Shown: positions 42,510 through 52,857 of the stretch, one piece after another | Layout of the letters: every line of letters begins with the position of its first letter | Numbering within the stretch: position 1 is the stretch's first letter | Origin: Acidobacteriota bacterium | Lineage (GTDB): Bacteria > Actinomycetota > Acidimicrobiia > Acidimicrobiales > Microtrichaceae | DNA: 64,000 nt | Direction: 5' to 3' | Assembly (NCBI GenBank): GCA_003577145.1 | Contig: QEUP01000005.1 | Location: 1-64,000 of the forward strand | The notes under the pieces: model-generated | What the model was told of the DNA's origin: nothing | The model's input: only the letters and a program-made list of their open reading frames with translations | Database searches by the model: none | Position numbers and translations under genes: made by a program

Positions 42510-43544
42510 ATGACCGACATGACCAACGCCACCGGGCACACCCCCGGTGCTCGTTCGGTGCGAGTCAGCAGTCCGCTGCGGCTGGCGGTGGCCCTCGCCG
42601 TCGTGGCCGCGGTGCTCACCATCATCCCCGCACCGAGTCCGTCTGGGGCGACGGGCTCCACGGGGGAAGCCGCCGGTGGTGGCACCGCGCGAGCCCAGAG
42701 CAGCAACAGCCCCGATGTGGTCCCGTTCATCGGGACCTTCGCCGTGTCCTGCGCCTACCAGACCGGTTCGTACTGCGGTGGCCATCACGGCTACTGGGCG
42801 ATTGACACGGGCATGCCGATCGGCACCCCCGTCTACGCCGCCGGGCCAGGGACCGTCACCAGCATCTTGAACCACTCCGCCGGCGGGCTGAGCCTCTACA
42901 TCACCCACCCCGACGGTCGCATCTCGGGCTACCTGCACCTGAGCCAGACCCTGGTGAGCGTCGGTCAGTCGGTGGACCGTTACGACCAGGTCGCACGCTC
43001 CGGGAACACAGGGAACGCGGGTTCGTACTCGCATCTTCACTACGAAGAGCAGAAGCCGGCCTGGACCAAGATCGACCCCGGCAAGATGTGGGCCTGTCAC
43101 GGATCGACTCCGGTGCTGTACCCCGACGCCGCCGGCTACAGCACCTGGCAGGGCCTCCCGTACGGCGTCACGATCCGCAACGACGGCTACGGCTGCCTCG
43201 GGGGACCCGGTGGACAGGTCTGGGAGTACACGACCGGCTACAGCAACGCCGACGCCAATGCTGTCGCGGCGGCCGCGGCTCACTTCGGGATGAGCCCCTC
43301 GGAACTGCAGAAACAGGGCGTCGGGCTGTTGGGTTGGATGCTGCTGGTGGCGGGCGCCAGCGGCACTTCCCCGCTGGTGCCGCCACCGCCGTCCACCGGC
43401 CCGGTCCAGCACGAGACGGCCTACAACAGCTACGAGAAGCAGTACCTGGATCTCGTCAGGGGCTACTACGTCTTGACGCCCGAACAGGCCCAGGCCGGCG
43501 GTGCCTCCCTGCTGGTCTTCTTTGCGGCCATGGCCGGCGCTTGA
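42510..43544 (+). CDS. Secreted M23 (LytM-like) peptidase
   Basis: The 344-residue protein has an N-terminal membrane/signal segment (LRLAVALAVVAAVLTIIPA), then a peptidase M23 domain. The Zn ligands are in HHGYWAIDTG (HxxxxD) and SHLHYE (HxH), with GTPVYAAGPGTVTS between them. This fold hydrolyses peptidoglycan cross-bridges or is a degenerate binding module; both metal motifs are intact here. The C-terminal third is a helical and Pro-rich extension with no known domain. GGAG precedes ATG 42510. It stands 74 nt upstream of the MauE-MauA-MauD-like operon on the same strand. Confidence 0.85.
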   Translation: MTDMTNATGHTPGARSVRVSSPLRLAVALAVVAAVLTIIPAPSPSGATGSTGEAAGGGTARAQSSNSPDVVPFIGTFAVSCAYQTGSYCGGHHGYWAIDTGMPIGTPVYAAGPGTVTSILNHSAGGLSLYITHPDGRISGYLHLSQTLVSVGQSVDRYDQVARSGNTGNAGSYSHLHYEEQKPAWTKIDPGKMWACHGSTPVLYPDAAGYSTWQGLPYGVTIRNDGYGCLGGPGGQVWEYTTGYSNADANAVAAAAAHFGMSPSELQKQGVGLLGWMLLVAGASGTSPLVPPPPSTGPVQHETAYNSYEKQYLDLVRGYYVLTPEQAQAGGASLLVFFAAMAGA

Positions 43545-43618: not shown

Positions 43619-44179
43619 GTGACCGGACTGGCAATAGCTGGGGCGTTTGACATCATCGCCCTGGTGGTGGCGTTGGGCGGGGCTCTCAAGCTGGTGCGCC
43701 CGCTGCCGACCGAGCAGGCGCTGCAATCGGTGGGCCTACCTCACCGACGAGGCGCAGCGCTGTGGCTGGGAGCGACCGAGTTGGTCCTCGGCAGTGCGGC
43801 GTTCGTGTTCGGAGGCCGGGTGCTCGCCTTGGCGCTAGGCATCGCCTACACGGGATTCGGGGTTTTCGTTGCGGTGGCGATGCGGCAGGACGGCAACTCC
43901 CGGTGCGGGTGCTTCGGTCGAGCAGACACACCGCCGACAATGATCCATCTGATCCTCAACGTGGTCTCCGCCGGCGTGGCTGTGGCGGCCTTCACCTATC
44001 CGGTCCCGTCGCTCGAGGTGATCATCAGCGAGCAACCGGCGTGGGGGCTGCCGTACTTGGGGTTCGTGCTGCTCGGCACGTATCTCGTCTATATCATCGA
44101 CACAGCTCTTCCTGAGGTGCTGGACGCCGGTAGGGGAGTTCGACCCGCCGATCCCGGACCGGTCGGCAGTCGGGGGTAG
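43619..44179 (+). CDS. MauE/DoxX-like integral membrane redox protein
   Basis: The 186-residue protein has four or five membrane helices. The MauE-like core contains KLVRPLPTEQALQSVGLP, then ATELVLGSAAFVFGG and the paired cysteines CGCFGRADTPP after the third helix, then a helix ending in a cytosolic tail. MauE is needed with MauD to make active methylamine dehydrogenase light chain, with its six disulfides, in the periplasm. The next two genes encode MauA- and MauD-like proteins, which strengthens the call. Start is GTG 43619, 3 nt upstream gap to the next gene. It probably transfers electrons or oxidising equivalents across the membrane (inference). Confidence 0.75.
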   Translation: MTGLAIAGAFDIIALVVALGGALKLVRPLPTEQALQSVGLPHRRGAALWLGATELVLGSAAFVFGGRVLALALGIAYTGFGVFVAVAMRQDGNSRCGCFGRADTPPTMIHLILNVVSAGVAVAAFTYPVPSLEVIISEQPAWGLPYLGFVLLGTYLVYIIDTALPEVLDAGRGVRPADPGPVGSRG

Positions 44180-44182
44180 CCA

Positions 44183-45733
44183 GTGGCCACGAAGTTGATC
44201 GAACGAACTGCGAGGTTCCTCGAGACAAGGCTCGACCGTCGCGGCTTTCTCGCGCGAGGTGCTCTGGCGGGCACTGCGGTCGCGGTTGCCCCGAGCGAGT
44301 TCATCCTCAGGCCCAACTCCGCGTATGCGGCCATCTGCAACTGCAACGGATCGAGCTGCAGCTGCTCGGCAACCTGTTGCGACGGGTACACGGAGTTCTG
44401 CTGCCATACCCATCCCGGCAACGGCAACCGCTGTCCTCCCGGGACCCGCCTCGGTGGGTGGTGGAAGGTCGACGGATCGAACTTCTGCGGCGGTGGCCCT
44501 CGCTACTACATGGACTGCAACGCATCCTGCGGCGGCTGCGGCTGCGGGGGCAGCGGCATCTGCAGCGGATCCTGTTCCGGTACGGGGTGTGGCTGCGCCC
44601 ACGGCGACTGCGGCAACCGGAAATCCGGTTGCACCGGATTCCGTTACGGTCAGTGCAACAATCAGATCGCTTGCCTCGGGCCCATAGTGTGCAGGGTGGT
44701 CACCTGTACTGCCCCGTGGGCCATCGATCCGACATGCAACACCACCGTGAGGGTCGACGAAGCCACCAGGTACCACAACCGTCCCTGCCTGCAGCAGTCC
44801 GACAACCCGTTCGGCGCGGTCGACTTCGTCAGTGACGAGAAGGGCGCGCTGCGTCTCAGGGGCTGGGTCATCGATCCCAACACCGGGTGGCCCGCCTACG
44901 CCCACGTCTACGTCGACGGGGCAGCGGTTGCCTCGACGCTGGCGAAGCTGGCGCGCCCCGACGTCGCTCGTCGCTACCCGGCCTATGGGCCTCATCACGG
45001 CTTCGACATCACCGTGCCCATGTCATCGGGCCTCCACGTCGTCTGCGTCGCCGCCATCAACCACGGCCCCGGCAACAACCAGTTCCTTGGGTGTGCCTTC
45101 GCCTATCTCTCCCCTGAACCGTTCGGTGCCCTCGACCTGGTCCAGGCCAAGCCGGGTTCCACCAGGATCACCGGCTGGGCCGCCGACCCCGACAAGGGGA
45201 CGGGGCCGATCTCGGTGCACACCTACATCGACGGAAGGCTGCACTCGGCCACGCGGGCAGATCGATACCGTCCTGACATCGAGCGCGCCTACCCTCACCT
45301 GGGGCCTTACCACGGCTTCGACGCGACCCTCCCCAGCTCGGGTGGCGACCACGAGGTCTGCGTCTACGCCTTCAACGAAGGGAGCGGCCACAACCAGAGA
45401 CTCGGGTGCAGGAAGGTCGGCCAGCCCTTCGGTAACGTCGACGTAGTCCGCGACGAGGGTGGGGCCATCCGGGTGTCAGGCTGGACGATCGACCCGGACA
45501 CGGTCGACCCGATCAAGGTACACGTCTACATCGACGGCCACGCCACCCGGTCGCTGGATGCCAACCGCAGCCGCTCCGACGTGGAACGCGTATACCCCGA
45601 GTACGGGCCGGCCCACGGCTTCAACGACCTGATCCCCGCGGTTCGAGGGGAACACGTCGTCTGCGTCTTCGCGATCAGCCACGGACGAGGCACCGCCGAG
45701 TATCTCGGCTGGAAGAAGGTCGTGGTCGCGTGA
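44183..45733 (+). CDS. Tat-exported cysteine-rich MauA-like protein fused to three secreted repeat domains
   Basis: The 516-residue protein starts with a Tat signal (LDRRGFLARGAL, residues 17-28; likely cleavage after NSAYA, 49). Residues 50-205 hold 26 cysteines and resemble methylamine dehydrogenase light chain: RCPPGTRLGGWWKVDGSNFC aligns with the MauA stretch around the first TTQ tryptophan (W93/W94 here). At the second TTQ site MauA has Ile-Trp-Cys; here it is Ile-Ala-Cys (QIACLG, Ala163), so TTQ probably cannot form. Residues about 209-305, 313-410 and 415-514 are three copies of a roughly 97-residue domain (GW-DP...VHVYVDG...RPDV...YP-YG-HGF...VCV...LGC). The third copy has Trp in place of the last Cys. 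GGGGGT lies 7 nt before GTG 44183. The MauE-like gene precedes it, and a MauD-like gene overlaps its stop by 4 nt. Confidence 0.8.
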   Translation: MATKLIERTARFLETRLDRRGFLARGALAGTAVAVAPSEFILRPNSAYAAICNCNGSSCSCSATCCDGYTEFCCHTHPGNGNRCPPGTRLGGWWKVDGSNFCGGGPRYYMDCNASCGGCGCGGSGICSGSCSGTGCGCAHGDCGNRKSGCTGFRYGQCNNQIACLGPIVCRVVTCTAPWAIDPTCNTTVRVDEATRYHNRPCLQQSDNPFGAVDFVSDEKGALRLRGWVIDPNTGWPAYAHVYVDGAAVASTLAKLARPDVARRYPAYGPHHGFDITVPMSSGLHVVCVAAINHGPGNNQFLGCAFAYLSPEPFGALDLVQAKPGSTRITGWAADPDKGTGPISVHTYIDGRLHSATRADRYRPDIERAYPHLGPYHGFDATLPSSGGDHEVCVYAFNEGSGHNQRLGCRKVGQPFGNVDVVRDEGGAIRVSGWTIDPDTVDPIKVHVYIDGHATRSLDANRSRSDVERVYPEYGPAHGFNDLIPAVRGEHVVCVFAISHGRGTAEYLGWKKVVVA

Positions 45734-46512
45734 CGGCACTGGTCATCATCGAGGGCGTGGTCATCCTGTTGCTGGCCATCCTGGTTGTCGGGCTGCTACG
45801 CAGTCACGCCGATGTGCTCCGGGCGCTCCACGAGCTCGGCGTCAACCCGCACGAGCGAACCCCGTTGGGTGGAGCTGCCGGCAACTTCGAGATCGCAACC
45901 AGGCCCGGCGTTCCCGAGCCCAGAGCCCACGCCGATCTCGGGGCCCACGACATAGCGGGATCGACGATCGACGGGGGGAGTGCGGTGGTGAGCGTAGCCG
46001 GCGTCGACCACACCACCCTGATCGCGTTCTTGTCGAGTGGCTGCTCGACCTGCGCCGATTTCTGGGCGGCTTTCGAGCACGGGGAAGCCGACCAGATCCC
46101 AGGGGTGAGTACCCGGCTGGTCGTCGTCACACAAGGCCCGGAACTGGAGAGCGTCTCCACTTTGGCAGAGCTCGCGGCCCCCGGCCTGACCACGGTCATG
46201 TCCTCCGAAGCCTGGGACGACTACGGGGTACCGGTTTCTCCGTACTTCGTTCTGGTTGATGGCCCCAGCGGTCGCGTGGCCGGCGAGGGAGCCGCCAGCT
46301 CGTGGCCACAGGTGCTCGACCTGCTTCGCAAGGCTGTCGCCGACGGGGGCATGGATCTGCGACCCAGACGCACCAGGCGGGAGTTCCTCACCGGCAGCCA
46401 GCGCGAGGAACGAGCCGACCGCGAGCTGGCGACCGCGGGCATCCACCCGGGTCATGCGAGTCTGTACCCCGAGACCCTCGACGACGTGGAGGGCGACGGT
46501 GACGACGATTGA
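45730..46512 (+). CDS. MauD-like membrane-anchored thioredoxin-fold protein
   Basis: The 260-residue protein has one N-terminal membrane helix (residues 3-23), a linker, and a thioredoxin-like domain with the active-site motif CSTC (Cys105-Cys108) in FLSSGCSTCADFW and a cis-Pro region GVPVSPYFVLVDG. This matches MauD, the disulfide oxidoreductase or isomerase required for methylamine dehydrogenase light chain folding. Its likely client is the 26-Cys protein encoded directly upstream, whose stop overlaps its GTG start (GTGA). The acidic C-terminal tail is not part of the family. Confidence 0.78.
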   Translation: MTALVIIEGVVILLLAILVVGLLRSHADVLRALHELGVNPHERTPLGGAAGNFEIATRPGVPEPRAHADLGAHDIAGSTIDGGSAVVSVAGVDHTTLIAFLSSGCSTCADFWAAFEHGEADQIPGVSTRLVVVTQGPELESVSTLAELAAPGLTTVMSSEAWDDYGVPVSPYFVLVDGPSGRVAGEGAASSWPQVLDLLRKAVADGGMDLRPRRTRREFLTGSQREERADRELATAGIHPGHASLYPETLDDVEGDGDDD

Positions 46513-46591
46513 GCTCTCGGGCGCTGCTGTGATGGCGGTTGGCCTGGCGGTTGCGGTGGTCGGCGCCGTACGGGCCAGCTGGTCACCCTGA
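46499..46591 (+). CDS. 30-residue single-helix membrane peptide
   Basis: GTG 46499 opens a 30-codon frame ending at TGA 46589-46591. GGAGGG lies 5 nt before it inside the end of the MauD-like gene, which it overlaps by 14 nt. The product MTTIELSGAAVMAVGLAVAV... is one hydrophobic helix with a basic residue near the C-terminus, like small subunits of membrane complexes. The next gene starts 9 nt later, so it fills an otherwise empty gap in the operon. Not proven to be translated. Confidence 0.45.
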   Translation: MTTIELSGAAVMAVGLAVAVVGAVRASWSP

Positions 46592-46600
46592 GGCGAGTCG

Positions 46601-47197
46601 ATGCTTTCGAGCATCCACCCGCTCGGTGAGCGGGCCAAGGGCAATCGATACGGTGTCACGCTGGCCGCCTACATGCTCGGTTCGCTTGCGGGTGGCCTGG
46701 TGCTGGGCGCGGCTCTCGGGCTGGCGGGCTCCGTGCTCAGGGAGCTCATCGATCCTGCGTTTGCTGCAATGACATTCGGAGCCGTCTGCATGGTCGCCTT
46801 CGTTGCCGACCGGGGCCGTTGGCTTTCCCGGCTCCCGTCATGGCATCGGCAGGTGAACGAGGACTGGCTGGCTGAGTTCCGCGGATGGGTCTACGGGTCA
46901 GGATTCGGGTTCCAGCTCGGCCTAGGTGTCGTCACCATCATCCCGTCGGCCATCTTCTACGCGGTGATGGCTGCCGGTCTTCTCGTGGGCTCCGTCCAGG
47001 GTGCGGTCGTCATCGGCGGCGCTTTCGGTCTGGTCAGGGGACTGGTCTTGATCACCGGCCGCCGGATCGTGGACACCCAGTCCCTGCTGGCATACCACCG
47101 CTCCTTTCAACGCCGCGCGCGGCTCGCTGACACCGCCACCTCCACCGCCCTGCTGGTGGGGGCGGGCACGCTGCTCCTGTCGACGGTGATGGCGTGA
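46601..47197 (+). CDS. Multi-pass membrane protein of the Mau-like operon
   Basis: The 198-residue protein has about five hydrophobic segments, including LAAYMLGSLAGGLVLGAALGLAG near the N-terminus, a soluble loop with DRGRWLSRLPSWHRQVNEDWL, and a second bundle from GSGFGFQLGLGVVTIIPSA onward. The Gly-rich first helices recall CcdA/DsbD-type electron carriers, but the paired membrane cysteines of that family are missing (one Cys, in GAVCMV). I therefore call only a membrane protein. It ends in GTGA, overlapping the next gene by 4 nt. Confidence 0.7.
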   Translation: MLSSIHPLGERAKGNRYGVTLAAYMLGSLAGGLVLGAALGLAGSVLRELIDPAFAAMTFGAVCMVAFVADRGRWLSRLPSWHRQVNEDWLAEFRGWVYGSGFGFQLGLGVVTIIPSAIFYAVMAAGLLVGSVQGAVVIGGAFGLVRGLVLITGRRIVDTQSLLAYHRSFQRRARLADTATSTALLVGAGTLLLSTVMA

Positions 47198-47673
47198 GCA
47201 CGAACATCGAGTCATTCGGCATCTCAGTCGAGGTACCCGACGGTTGGAACGGGCAGATATTCCGCCGCCCCGGCGACGCAGGAGCGCAGCCACAGGCTGT
47301 CGACGAGGGCGACTCGAGCACGTTCCCGGTCGTTCACGTCGGCAACTTCTGGCTACCTGCAGTACGAGGCGACTTCGGCTCAGGTGCCGTCGAGCAGATG
47401 AGCCACGACGACGTGCTCGTGTGCCTGCTCGAATACGAGCCCGAGGCTGCCTCCACTGCACTTTTCGCGCATGAAGGGATACCTCGGTTCACCGCTGGTG
47501 ATTTCGATCCACGGACGATGCAGAGAAGCGTGGCCGGTATGGCCGGTGCCCAAGCGTTCTTCCGGGTCAACGGTCGCGCCTTTTGCGTCTACGCGGTGGT
47601 GGGCAGCTATGCCCGAAGGAGCCACCTCGCACCTTCGGTGAACCGCGTGCTGGAGGGGATCGAGATCGGGTGA
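47194..47673 (+). CDS. Small soluble protein of unknown function
   Basis: The 159-residue protein begins ESFGISVEVPDGWNGQIF, a start shared by many actinobacterial PsbP/Mog1-like 'wall-associated' sequences, and contains ALFAHEGIPRFTAGDFDP. It has no signal peptide or membrane helix. A PsbP-like alpha/beta sandwich is a guess. Its GTG overlaps the previous stop (GTGA), so it belongs to the operon. Function unknown. Confidence 0.65.
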   Translation: MSTNIESFGISVEVPDGWNGQIFRRPGDAGAQPQAVDEGDSSTFPVVHVGNFWLPAVRGDFGSGAVEQMSHDDVLVCLLEYEPEAASTALFAHEGIPRFTAGDFDPRTMQRSVAGMAGAQAFFRVNGRAFCVYAVVGSYARRSHLAPSVNRVLEGIEIG

Positions 47674-51297: not shown

Positions 51298-52857
51298 GTG
51301 AGCAGAACCATCCCGGGGCGGTGGGCCAGCCGGTTGTGCCGAGCCGTACCGGCGTTCGCCCGAGTGGCCGGCGCCGCCGTGCTGGTGGTGGCCGTGGCGT
51401 TTCTCCCGGGAGCCGACCATTCAGCCCGGGCCGGCACCGGTGCGGTACCGGCGGCTGGTATGGCCTCGCCCCTGGCAGGATCGGTGGCCGCGGCGAACAG
51501 GACGACCGCGGCAATCGGCAACCTACCCGACACCAAGGTCCTCATGGTGGGTGACTCGATCGCCTGGACCATGGGTTTCGACATGACCGGTGCGGTCCTG
51601 ACCGATCACCACATCAGCTCGTTCACCAACGGGGCCCTTCCCTGGTGCGAGCTGATCATAAGGTCACCACTGGTGACGGAATGGGGGACGCTGCAGGAGC
51701 CCTCGAACGCCTGTGACGACTGGCGAGGTGAATGGCAAAGAGCGGTGGACGCCCTGCGTCCTGACGTCGTCCTCTTCTACGTCGGCGGCTGGGAGGTGTA
51801 CAGCCGCATCCTCGGCTACCTCTTCTACATGCCTTTCGCGGGGTCGCTCTACAACGCAGTGGAAGCCGACATCCTCGATGACGCGATCAAGATCCTCTCG
51901 TCGAGGGGCGCTCATGTGGGCTTGGTCACCGCGGGCATCTACATGCGCGAGGACGGCTCCTATTGGTCTTCGAAGCACAAGTGGCGCACCGACCACTTCA
52001 ACAACCTGCTCCGTCAGGCGAATGCGAAGTATCCGTCGCAGACCTCGATGGTGGAGATGGAGGCCTGGCTGTGCCCCAACGATCGCTGCCCGCAGTACGT
52101 GGACGGTTACTGGGTACGGCCCGACGGCATTCACTTCGGACATCAGTTGATGTTCCCGCACCTGCCTCCGAACCCGGCCACCTACTGGATGGCCTCTGAG
52201 GCCCGTCGGCTGCATCTGAAGGTCCTCGGTCGCCCAATCGGTGCCTACGATTCGCTCCAGCGGGCGCCCGGGGGTGCCAGAGCAACCGGTTGGGTCCTCG
52301 ATAGGGACACAGCAGACCCGACCTCGGCGAGTTTCTGGGAGGGGCTGTATCCACATGTGGTCGCGGTCGCAGATCGGTACCGATCCGACATCGAGCGCAT
52401 CTACGGCTTGGGCCCGAACCACGGATTGGTCGTCGACATCCCGTTGTCGGAGGGGTCCCACACTCTGTGCGGCTACGCCCACGACGCCACCGGCGGTGCA
52501 CCGTACGGGGCGATCGGCTGCAAGAGCGTCCACATAACGGGAACACCGTCGGGTGCCTGGGACTCCGTCGCCACCTCACCCGGCAGCCTCACCGTCAATG
52601 GCTGGATGGTCGACTGGGACAGCGCCTCACCCGGCTACGTTCACGTGTACGTCGACGGTGTCGCCACGGCGTCGACTCTCGCAACCGCCAGCCGTTCTGA
52701 CATCGCCCGGCTCTACCCTGCATACGGCAGCCTGCACGGATTCAACCGAGTCGTGCCGGTCGCGTCGGGGCGACACCAGGTCTGCCTCTACGCGATCAAC
52801 CTGACCGGTCCGGGAACGAACCCGTCGCTGGGCTGCCGGTCGGTGGTGGTGCCCTGA
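51298..52857 (+). CDS. Exported SGNH-hydrolase-like protein with two C-terminal secreted repeats
   Basis: The 519-residue protein has a signal or anchor helix (VAGAAVLVVAVAFLPGA) and an SGNH domain with the Ser block VLMVGDSIAWTMGFD, a Gly block LFYVGGWEVYS and the Asp-His pair PDGIHFGH. This is the arrangement seen in the extracellular SGNH domains of acyltransferases such as OafA. After about residue 320 it carries two copies of the domain also present in the MauA-like protein (second copy: GWMVDWDSASPGYVHVYVDG ... GFNRVVPVASGRHQVC). The likely role is O-acetyl-ester chemistry on the cell wall or glycans (inference). GTG 51298 has GAGGAG 5 nt upstream. Confidence 0.78.
   Translation: MSRTIPGRWASRLCRAVPAFARVAGAAVLVVAVAFLPGADHSARAGTGAVPAAGMASPLAGSVAAANRTTAAIGNLPDTKVLMVGDSIAWTMGFDMTGAVLTDHHISSFTNGALPWCELIIRSPLVTEWGTLQEPSNACDDWRGEWQRAVDALRPDVVLFYVGGWEVYSRILGYLFYMPFAGSLYNAVEADILDDAIKILSSRGAHVGLVTAGIYMREDGSYWSSKHKWRTDHFNNLLRQANAKYPSQTSMVEMEAWLCPNDRCPQYVDGYWVRPDGIHFGHQLMFPHLPPNPATYWMASEARRLHLKVLGRPIGAYDSLQRAPGGARATGWVLDRDTADPTSASFWEGLYPHVVAVADRYRSDIERIYGLGPNHGLVVDIPLSEGSHTLCGYAHDATGGAPYGAIGCKSVHITGTPSGAWDSVATSPGSLTVNGWMVDWDSASPGYVHVYVDGVATASTLATASRSDIARLYPAYGSLHGFNRVVPVASGRHQVCLYAINLTGPGTNPSLGCRSVVVP

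Follow-up and report, generated by a model that had tools for sequence, protein, structure and literature searches.

A mau-type gene cassette of Acidimicrobiia with a predicted MauF selenoprotein and a Tat-exported cysteine-rich protein

The light chain of methylamine dehydrogenase (MADH), MauA, depends on the accessory protein MauF. MauE and MauD are also required for the light chain (van der Palen 1997, as cited in PMC7794033). Here we describe a cassette of five genes, E, A, D, F (also called X4) and X5, in a stretch of 64,000 nucleotides (the window; positions 1 to 64,000 of contig QEUP01000005.1, assembly GCA_003577145.1) from a bacterium placed by GTDB in the Acidimicrobiales. It encodes counterparts of MauE, MauD and MauF together with A, a cysteine-rich protein exported by the twin-arginine translocation (Tat) system. 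We read it as a dedicated oxidative-folding cassette, in which E, D and F would build the disulfides of A, F containing selenocysteine (Sec) and A lacking the tryptophan tryptophylquinone (TTQ) cofactor. The probability of this reading is put at about 0.72.

The mau operon of Paracoccus denitrificans is the closest described system. Its MauF, MauE and MauD all have specific counterparts in the cassette, which likewise adjoin a gene for a Tat-exported Cys-rich protein, and the redox Cys of MauF is aligned with the Sec or Cys of F. Unlike the mau operon, the cassette has no mauB, mauG, amicyanin or mauJ-type gene. Furthermore, its substrate would hold about 13 disulfides as against 6 and carries different C-terminal modules, F has a predicted Sec, X5 is an extra gene and the gene order is different. 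In Streptomyces, clusters reported in the decRiPPter study (PMC7794033) have MauE, in one case together with MauD, next to a Cys-rich product (at least 8 Cys), whereas other mau genes are absent. They were interpreted there as clusters for ribosomally synthesised and post-translationally modified peptides, and the passage dealing with them does not describe MauF, selenocysteine, a large Tat-exported protein or X5.

A relation of F to the DsbD/CcdA superfamily is indicated by one F relative that matches DsbD_2 (PF13386) above the Pfam cut-off. In F only one redox residue is conserved (WSPUG), in contrast to the two-Cys pattern of DsbD/CcdA, and there is no rhodanese domain. Among the 119 families of prokaryotic selenoproteins catalogued in 2026 (PMC13188914), none is of MauF type or has WSPUG, and TsoB (NF045694), a rhodanese/DsbD-fusion-like selenoprotein, comes nearest. 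TsoB and the DsbD_2 match of the F relative mean that a Sec-containing DsbD-type protein is not without precedent. Neither the cassette nor a selenoprotein of MauF type was found described in the open-access literature, subscription papers lying outside the search.

The cassette and its mau-type accessory genes

The genes and elements of the cassette are as follows:
43619..44179, + strand: gene E, MauE-like membrane protein, 186 aa, CGCFG
44183..45733, + strand: gene A, Tat-exported Cys-rich protein, 516 aa
44324..44806, + strand: Cys-rich domain of A, residues 48-208, 26 Cys, distantly MauA-like
44807..45730, + strand: three C-terminal repeats of A, each of about 100 residues, FG.(V/L)D...GW..DP....HGF
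45730..46512, + strand: gene D, MauD-like, N-terminal membrane anchor and thioredoxin-like domain, CSTC at 46042-46053
46499..47197, + strand: gene F (X4), MauF-like membrane protein, predicted selenoprotein, 232 aa
46589..46591, + strand: in-frame TGA of F, predicted Sec U31, aligned with the Cys of ...STWSPCGYSS... in P. denitrificans MauF
46600..46634, + strand: element resembling a bacterial selenocysteine insertion sequence (bSECIS), with a hairpin at 46600-46615 and a SECIS-type hairpin at 46618-46634
47194..47673, + strand: gene X5, 159 aa, no signal seen, PsbP/Mog1/LpqN-like fold

An earlier note on this DNA, made from the sequence alone, had reported a MauE-like gene (CGCFG), a gene for a Tat-exported 26-Cys protein and a MauD-like gene (CSTC) in this order. 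The three are present as reported at 43619-46512, A beginning 3 nt past the end of E and D overlapping A by 4 nt. Two further genes were overlooked there. One is the MauF-like gene, which is called as an open reading frame (ORF) at 46601-47197 and takes up the remainder of the interval given, 43619-47197, but runs from about 46499 and through a TGA; the other is X5.

A pattern scan of GTDB contigs gave 282 loci, and the best 80 of these were kept, with mostly Acidimicrobiia, Acidimicrobiales or Microthrixaceae in their titles. Searches of the neighbourhoods with hidden Markov models found A accompanied by E in 78 of the 80, by D in 75, by X5 in 70 and by F in 59, absences being mostly contig ends or loci without F. 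All 80 loci come from other genomes. The same association was found in 60 further loci, so that it goes beyond chance and the cassette is no local oddity. The usual order is E-A-D-X4-X5 or D-X4-X5-E-A, on a single strand. Relatives of the Cys domain occur in 87 of 395 genomes of the class (tblastn with this domain as query), and the A family extends to further classes of the phylum, where X4 and X5 are again close by. Plasmid records searched with A and with F gave no match. An M23 peptidase gene lies upstream of the cassette (42510-43544) and is not a conserved neighbour of it.

Each cassette family was compared by hhalign with all 11 proteins of the P. denitrificans mau locus (NC_008688). 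In these single comparisons the matches were one to one, E with MauE (E-value 1.8e-8), D with MauD (1.3e-8) and X4 with MauF (2.6e-13), the other mau proteins being null, and reversed-sequence controls of the matrix gave nothing. As each accessory family matches its own counterpart, the cassette holds homologues of MauF, MauE and MauD. This is supported by gene E, which matches the Pfam family MauE, PF07291 (6.6e-12; 46.3 bits against a cut-off of 27), as do all 27 scanned E relatives, with C96, C98 and G100 invariant in the family. The D family has invariant CxxC cysteines, C105 and C108, and aligns with the MauD family over 107 columns (hhalign, 3e-11), whereas the D protein of the window has no match in Pfam or NCBIfam. 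When F is read through the TGA, the hhalign match to MauF extends over 188 columns (probability 98.8, E 6.2e-17); NCBIfam has no family matching the F of the window. By sequence comparison, the relationships to MauE, MauD and MauF are clear and the cassette is conserved.

The cysteine-rich protein and its likely kinship to MauA

Protein A has an RR-x-FL Tat signal and 31 Cys, 26 of them within residues 48-208. A Tat motif is found in 61 of 61 A relatives, and Tat signals and Cys patterns are common to relatives of 48-76% identity. CPPGTRLGGWW stands at residues 84-94, and W93 and W94 are invariant in all 158 members of the family. At the place proposed for the second TTQ position the earlier note had read Ile162-Ala163-Cys164, and this is what A contains; across the family residue 163 varies among Ala, Pro, Arg, Ser, Gly and others, and in none of the 158 is it Trp, in an alignment to MauA that is weak. 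The number of Cys is even in 152 of the 158 members, which are related sequences and hence not independent events, and several Cys pairs have been gained or lost jointly. The lack of Trp at 163 and the even Cys count point to a domain that should be a fully disulfide-bonded protein without TTQ.

The part of A that follows the Cys domain consists in relatives of SLH, LGFP, ricin-B, DUF4214 or other repeats, or is absent. This part is exchangeable, and the Cys domain is therefore the constant part of A. Several of the modules are surface or carbohydrate-binding modules, in agreement with the envelope role and the C-terminal repeats put forward in the earlier note; its suggestion that a maturation machinery was kept for a secreted disulfide-rich protein likewise fits the conservation of MauE- and MauD-type genes with A. 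Flags for an internal TGA in the A of some relatives turned out to be genuine stops where the Cys domain ends, giving a version without C-terminal modules. The GW..DP...HGF repeat of A also occurs in three other long open frames of the own genome (window 52231-52851; G000:C68:10235-10924; G000:C13:78268-78945). It is a recurrent surface module, and no Pfam family was found for the window copy.

The light chains of MADH and of aromatic amine dehydrogenase (AADH), MauA and AauA (PF02975), share with A the CPPGT block, with a Trp near MauA Trp57, and Tat export, and they are the best though weak fold match of its Cys domain. A differs from these light chains in that PF02975 does not match it, a Trp is missing at the second TTQ position, its Cys are far more numerous and it comes without a heavy chain. 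It could be argued that the Cys domain is unrelated to MauA, that mau-type accessories were recruited to it and that the CPPGT/GWW likeness is convergent. In line with this, none of 53 A members matched PF02975, and phmmer/hmmsearch of the A profile against PDB sequences gave no match. The hhalign score of A against MauA, Thermomicrobium roseum homologues or both (19.9-22.8) lies inside the range of a column-shuffled null (maximum 23.95, 60 nulls). Against it stands the AlphaFold2 model of the Cys domain (predicted local distance difference test, pLDDT, 89), for which the first Foldseek match among 350,542 PDB chains is an MADH light chain, at an E of only 5.9, and for which 18 of the 18 VIA-align entries listed are MADH/AADH light chains, at a low Z of 2.1-2.5. 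MauA is also the best, though insignificant, of the 11 mau proteins for the Cys-domain profile (hhalign), and Tat export and the MauE/D/F context are common to A and MauA. The earlier note had called A a MauA homologue. At sequence level this did not hold, the profile search against the MADH light-chain family, named there as the test, giving no significant match. Because of structure, weak as it is, and gene context, kinship is still favoured despite the sequence-level null: descent of the Cys domain from MauA is likely, though not shown, and independent origin is rather unlikely.

The absence of mauB and mauG, noted earlier for the window, extends to the whole of its own genome (completeness 96.6%), where PF06433 (MauB), PF02975 (MauA) and PF03150 (MauG) have no match, a Paracoccus record used as control being positive for all three. 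In the genomes of relatives this was upheld for G190 and G346, which have neither; G110 also lacks MauB, but has a weak MauG match in an unrelated context. These data bear on the proposal that A is an enzyme with another protein-derived cofactor on Trp93/Trp94. The invariance of both residues at the place of the quinone-bearing Trp57 of MauA would suit such an enzyme, but no member has a second Trp at 163, neither MauG nor a heavy chain is found in the own genome, and with an even number of Cys none is left over to form a Cys-Trp link. We regard it as improbable.

Alternatively, the Cys-rich domain might bind metal through thiolates, like a metallothionein, with E, D and F keeping it reduced. 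Its Cys content is very high, and DsbD-type proteins normally deliver reductant outwards. Against this, the Cys number is nearly always even, Cys have been lost or gained two at a time, Tat delivers A to an oxidising space and the model is confident and globular; metal binding seems very improbable.

In T. roseum (NC_011961; L095 11878-24225; about 479600-492000) at least five MauA-like Cys-rich proteins score above the PF02975 cut-off. Both Trp positions are kept in these proteins, and they alternate with PQQ_2/BamB-like proteins of about 400 aa; after the array come a gene for a PQQ_2-MauE fusion and one that is MauD-like. The record has no match to PF06433 or PF03150, and the array may be TTQ-like with unusual partners. 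As in the cassette, MauA-like Cys-rich proteins occur there with MauE and MauD-like genes. Unlike the cassette, both Trp are kept, the neighbours are PQQ_2/BamB-like and no F or X5 was seen in the stretch.

A predicted selenocysteine codon in the MauF-type gene

ORF callers start the gene between D and X5 at ATG 46601, just past the equivalent of the MauF Cys. The segment of Paracoccus MauF reads ...LSTWSPCGYSSISLLRP..., and the in-frame reading of the window from 46499 onwards is VTTIELSGAAVMAVGLAVAVVGAVRASWSP-TGA-GESMLSSIHPLGER. Candidate starts of F are GTG 46499, or GTG 46529 / ATG 46532. Among 106 loci the codon at the site is TGA in 87, TGT in 12 and TGC in 7, and nothing else was found. 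The frame is conserved on both sides of the TGA, with R25, W28, S29 and P30 before it invariant, and TGA also occurs at the F site in other classes. Global reassignment of TGA was rejected, TGA being the commonest genuine stop of the neighbouring cassette genes in these genomes, and read-through was preferred to the idea that the D-F gap encodes a small peptide of its own.

In the window two hairpins come directly after the TGA. The second, CCCGCUC-GGU-GAGCGGG (46618-46634), has a stem of 7 bp, a GGU loop starting 33 nt from the UGA and a folding energy of -11.5 kcal/mol. The published bSECIS model (PMC13188914) asks for a loop of 3-9 nt with G in the first two positions, a stem of at least 4 bp, a distance of 16-37 nt from the UGA and a minimum free energy of -7.5 or lower. 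This model is fitted by 76 of 87 TGA loci, as against 3 of 19 Cys loci. When the 71 distinct TGA sequences are aligned, pairing holds in 98.5% of cells and both sides have changed in 35 cells (0 of 500 shuffles as high), and sliding the hairpin partner abolishes the covariation signal. The 17 Cys sequences are 61.5% paired, with no signal above shuffles. The RNA alignments indicate that the covarying hairpin of the TGA loci is one that fits the bacterial SECIS model.

The distribution of the Sec machinery follows that of the TGA. SelA is present in 36 of 37 genomes with TGA-type F and in 5 of 21 other cassette genomes (Fisher 3.8e-9, kinship ignored). The TGA-type genome without SelA (79% complete) has a high-scoring tRNA-Sec, so that SelA or tRNA-Sec is present in all 37; the same 5 of the 21 others that have SelA have tRNA-Sec. 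For tRNA-Sec the high-scoring class was used, as RF01852 matches every genome and is uninformative below about 55 bits (tRNA-Ser, other long tRNAs). Neither SelA nor tRNA-Sec is found in 6 of 8 Cys-type genomes. In the own genome, selA (TIGR00474) adjoins selB (TIGR00475), both above NCBIfam cut-offs, and a tRNA-Sec with anticodon TCA lies on the same contig.

F is very probably an undescribed selenoprotein whose Sec codon has been annotated as a stop, and we infer from the sequences that selenium is incorporated into it. That the TGA is an ordinary stop ending a leader peptide of about 30 codons, the MauF-like protein being made from ATG 46601, is scarcely credible: TGA is the usual stop in these genomes and an ATG (rarely GTG), the one picked by ORF callers, lies four codons past it, but 19 loci have a Cys codon at the site in an unbroken frame, the peptide ahead of the TGA is conserved and homologous to MauF, in which a Cys aligns with the TGA, the SECIS covariation is confined to TGA loci, and SelA/tRNA-Sec co-occur with TGA-type F.

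One genome, G378, carries two cassettes (L056/L060) that differ in F, which is TGA-type in one and Cys-type in the other, and so offers a natural comparison of the two forms. Cys-type F genes (L067, L069, L072, L074, L080, L087, L089 and others) tend to sit after A or away from D, whereas Sec-type genes are found between D and X5. These differing positions suggest two old lineages, not recent Sec-to-Cys changes.

A proposed selenium-dependent folding pathway

On our reading of the cassette as an oxidative-folding system, A would be exported folded or part-folded via Tat and would then need about 13 correct disulfides. E (membrane, CGCFG), D (membrane-anchored thioredoxin, CxxC) and F (DsbD/CcdA-type) would form and proofread these outside the membrane, a role modelled on that of MauE, MauD and MauF for the MADH light chain. 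The redox residue of F, here and in most relatives, would be the Sec next to its first membrane helix, inserted at the UGA under the downstream SECIS hairpin, and would react with the CxxC of D. The disulfide-knotted head of A, carried on exchangeable surface-type C-terminal modules, probably serves outside the cell in structure or binding. The direction of electron flow, the pairing of the disulfides and the roles of A and X5 are what we infer here.

The AlphaFold2 model of X5 (pLDDT 94) has a PsbP/Mog1/LpqN/Tsi3-like fold (best VIA Z 7.3). D60, G62, Q120, F122 and R128 are invariant in the family, which has no Pfam match. Fold matches include EagT6 and SciW, chaperones of membrane segments, and it may be speculated, as a guess, that X5 chaperones A or F.

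Several observations weigh against the oxidative-folding reading. The lack of TAA and TAG at the F site says little by itself, because TGA is the commonest ordinary stop. Ten of the loci examined have no F nearby, and neither SelA nor tRNA-Sec is found in their genomes; F may be dispensable, or its gene may lie elsewhere. As related genomes are not independent, the Fisher test gives too optimistic a p-value. The hhalign E-values are those of single comparisons, although the control matrix is clean, and Pfam has no family for MauF or for the F of the window.

We lean slightly towards a still broader proposal, a selenium-dependent oxidative-folding pathway of the actinobacterial cell envelope, in which an uncatalogued Sec-MauF and MauE/D-type proteins would serve one Tat-exported surface protein with many disulfides that derives from a quinoenzyme subunit and has lost its cofactor.

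F would very probably be a new selenoprotein family, present in many Acidimicrobiia and other actinobacterial classes, the product of which is cut at the Sec codon by current annotation. Furthermore, the cassette separates the MauE/D/F machinery from TTQ chemistry. The occurrence of the same trio with a substrate unable to form TTQ supports the view that MauE, MauD and MauF are a disulfide-forming module, not cofactor enzymes. The exchange of Cys and Sec points to a single MauF residue as the redox centre and makes the poorly understood role of this protein directly testable. From the cassette one would further expect that abundant bacteria, most of them uncultured, have a surface protein that depends on selenium.

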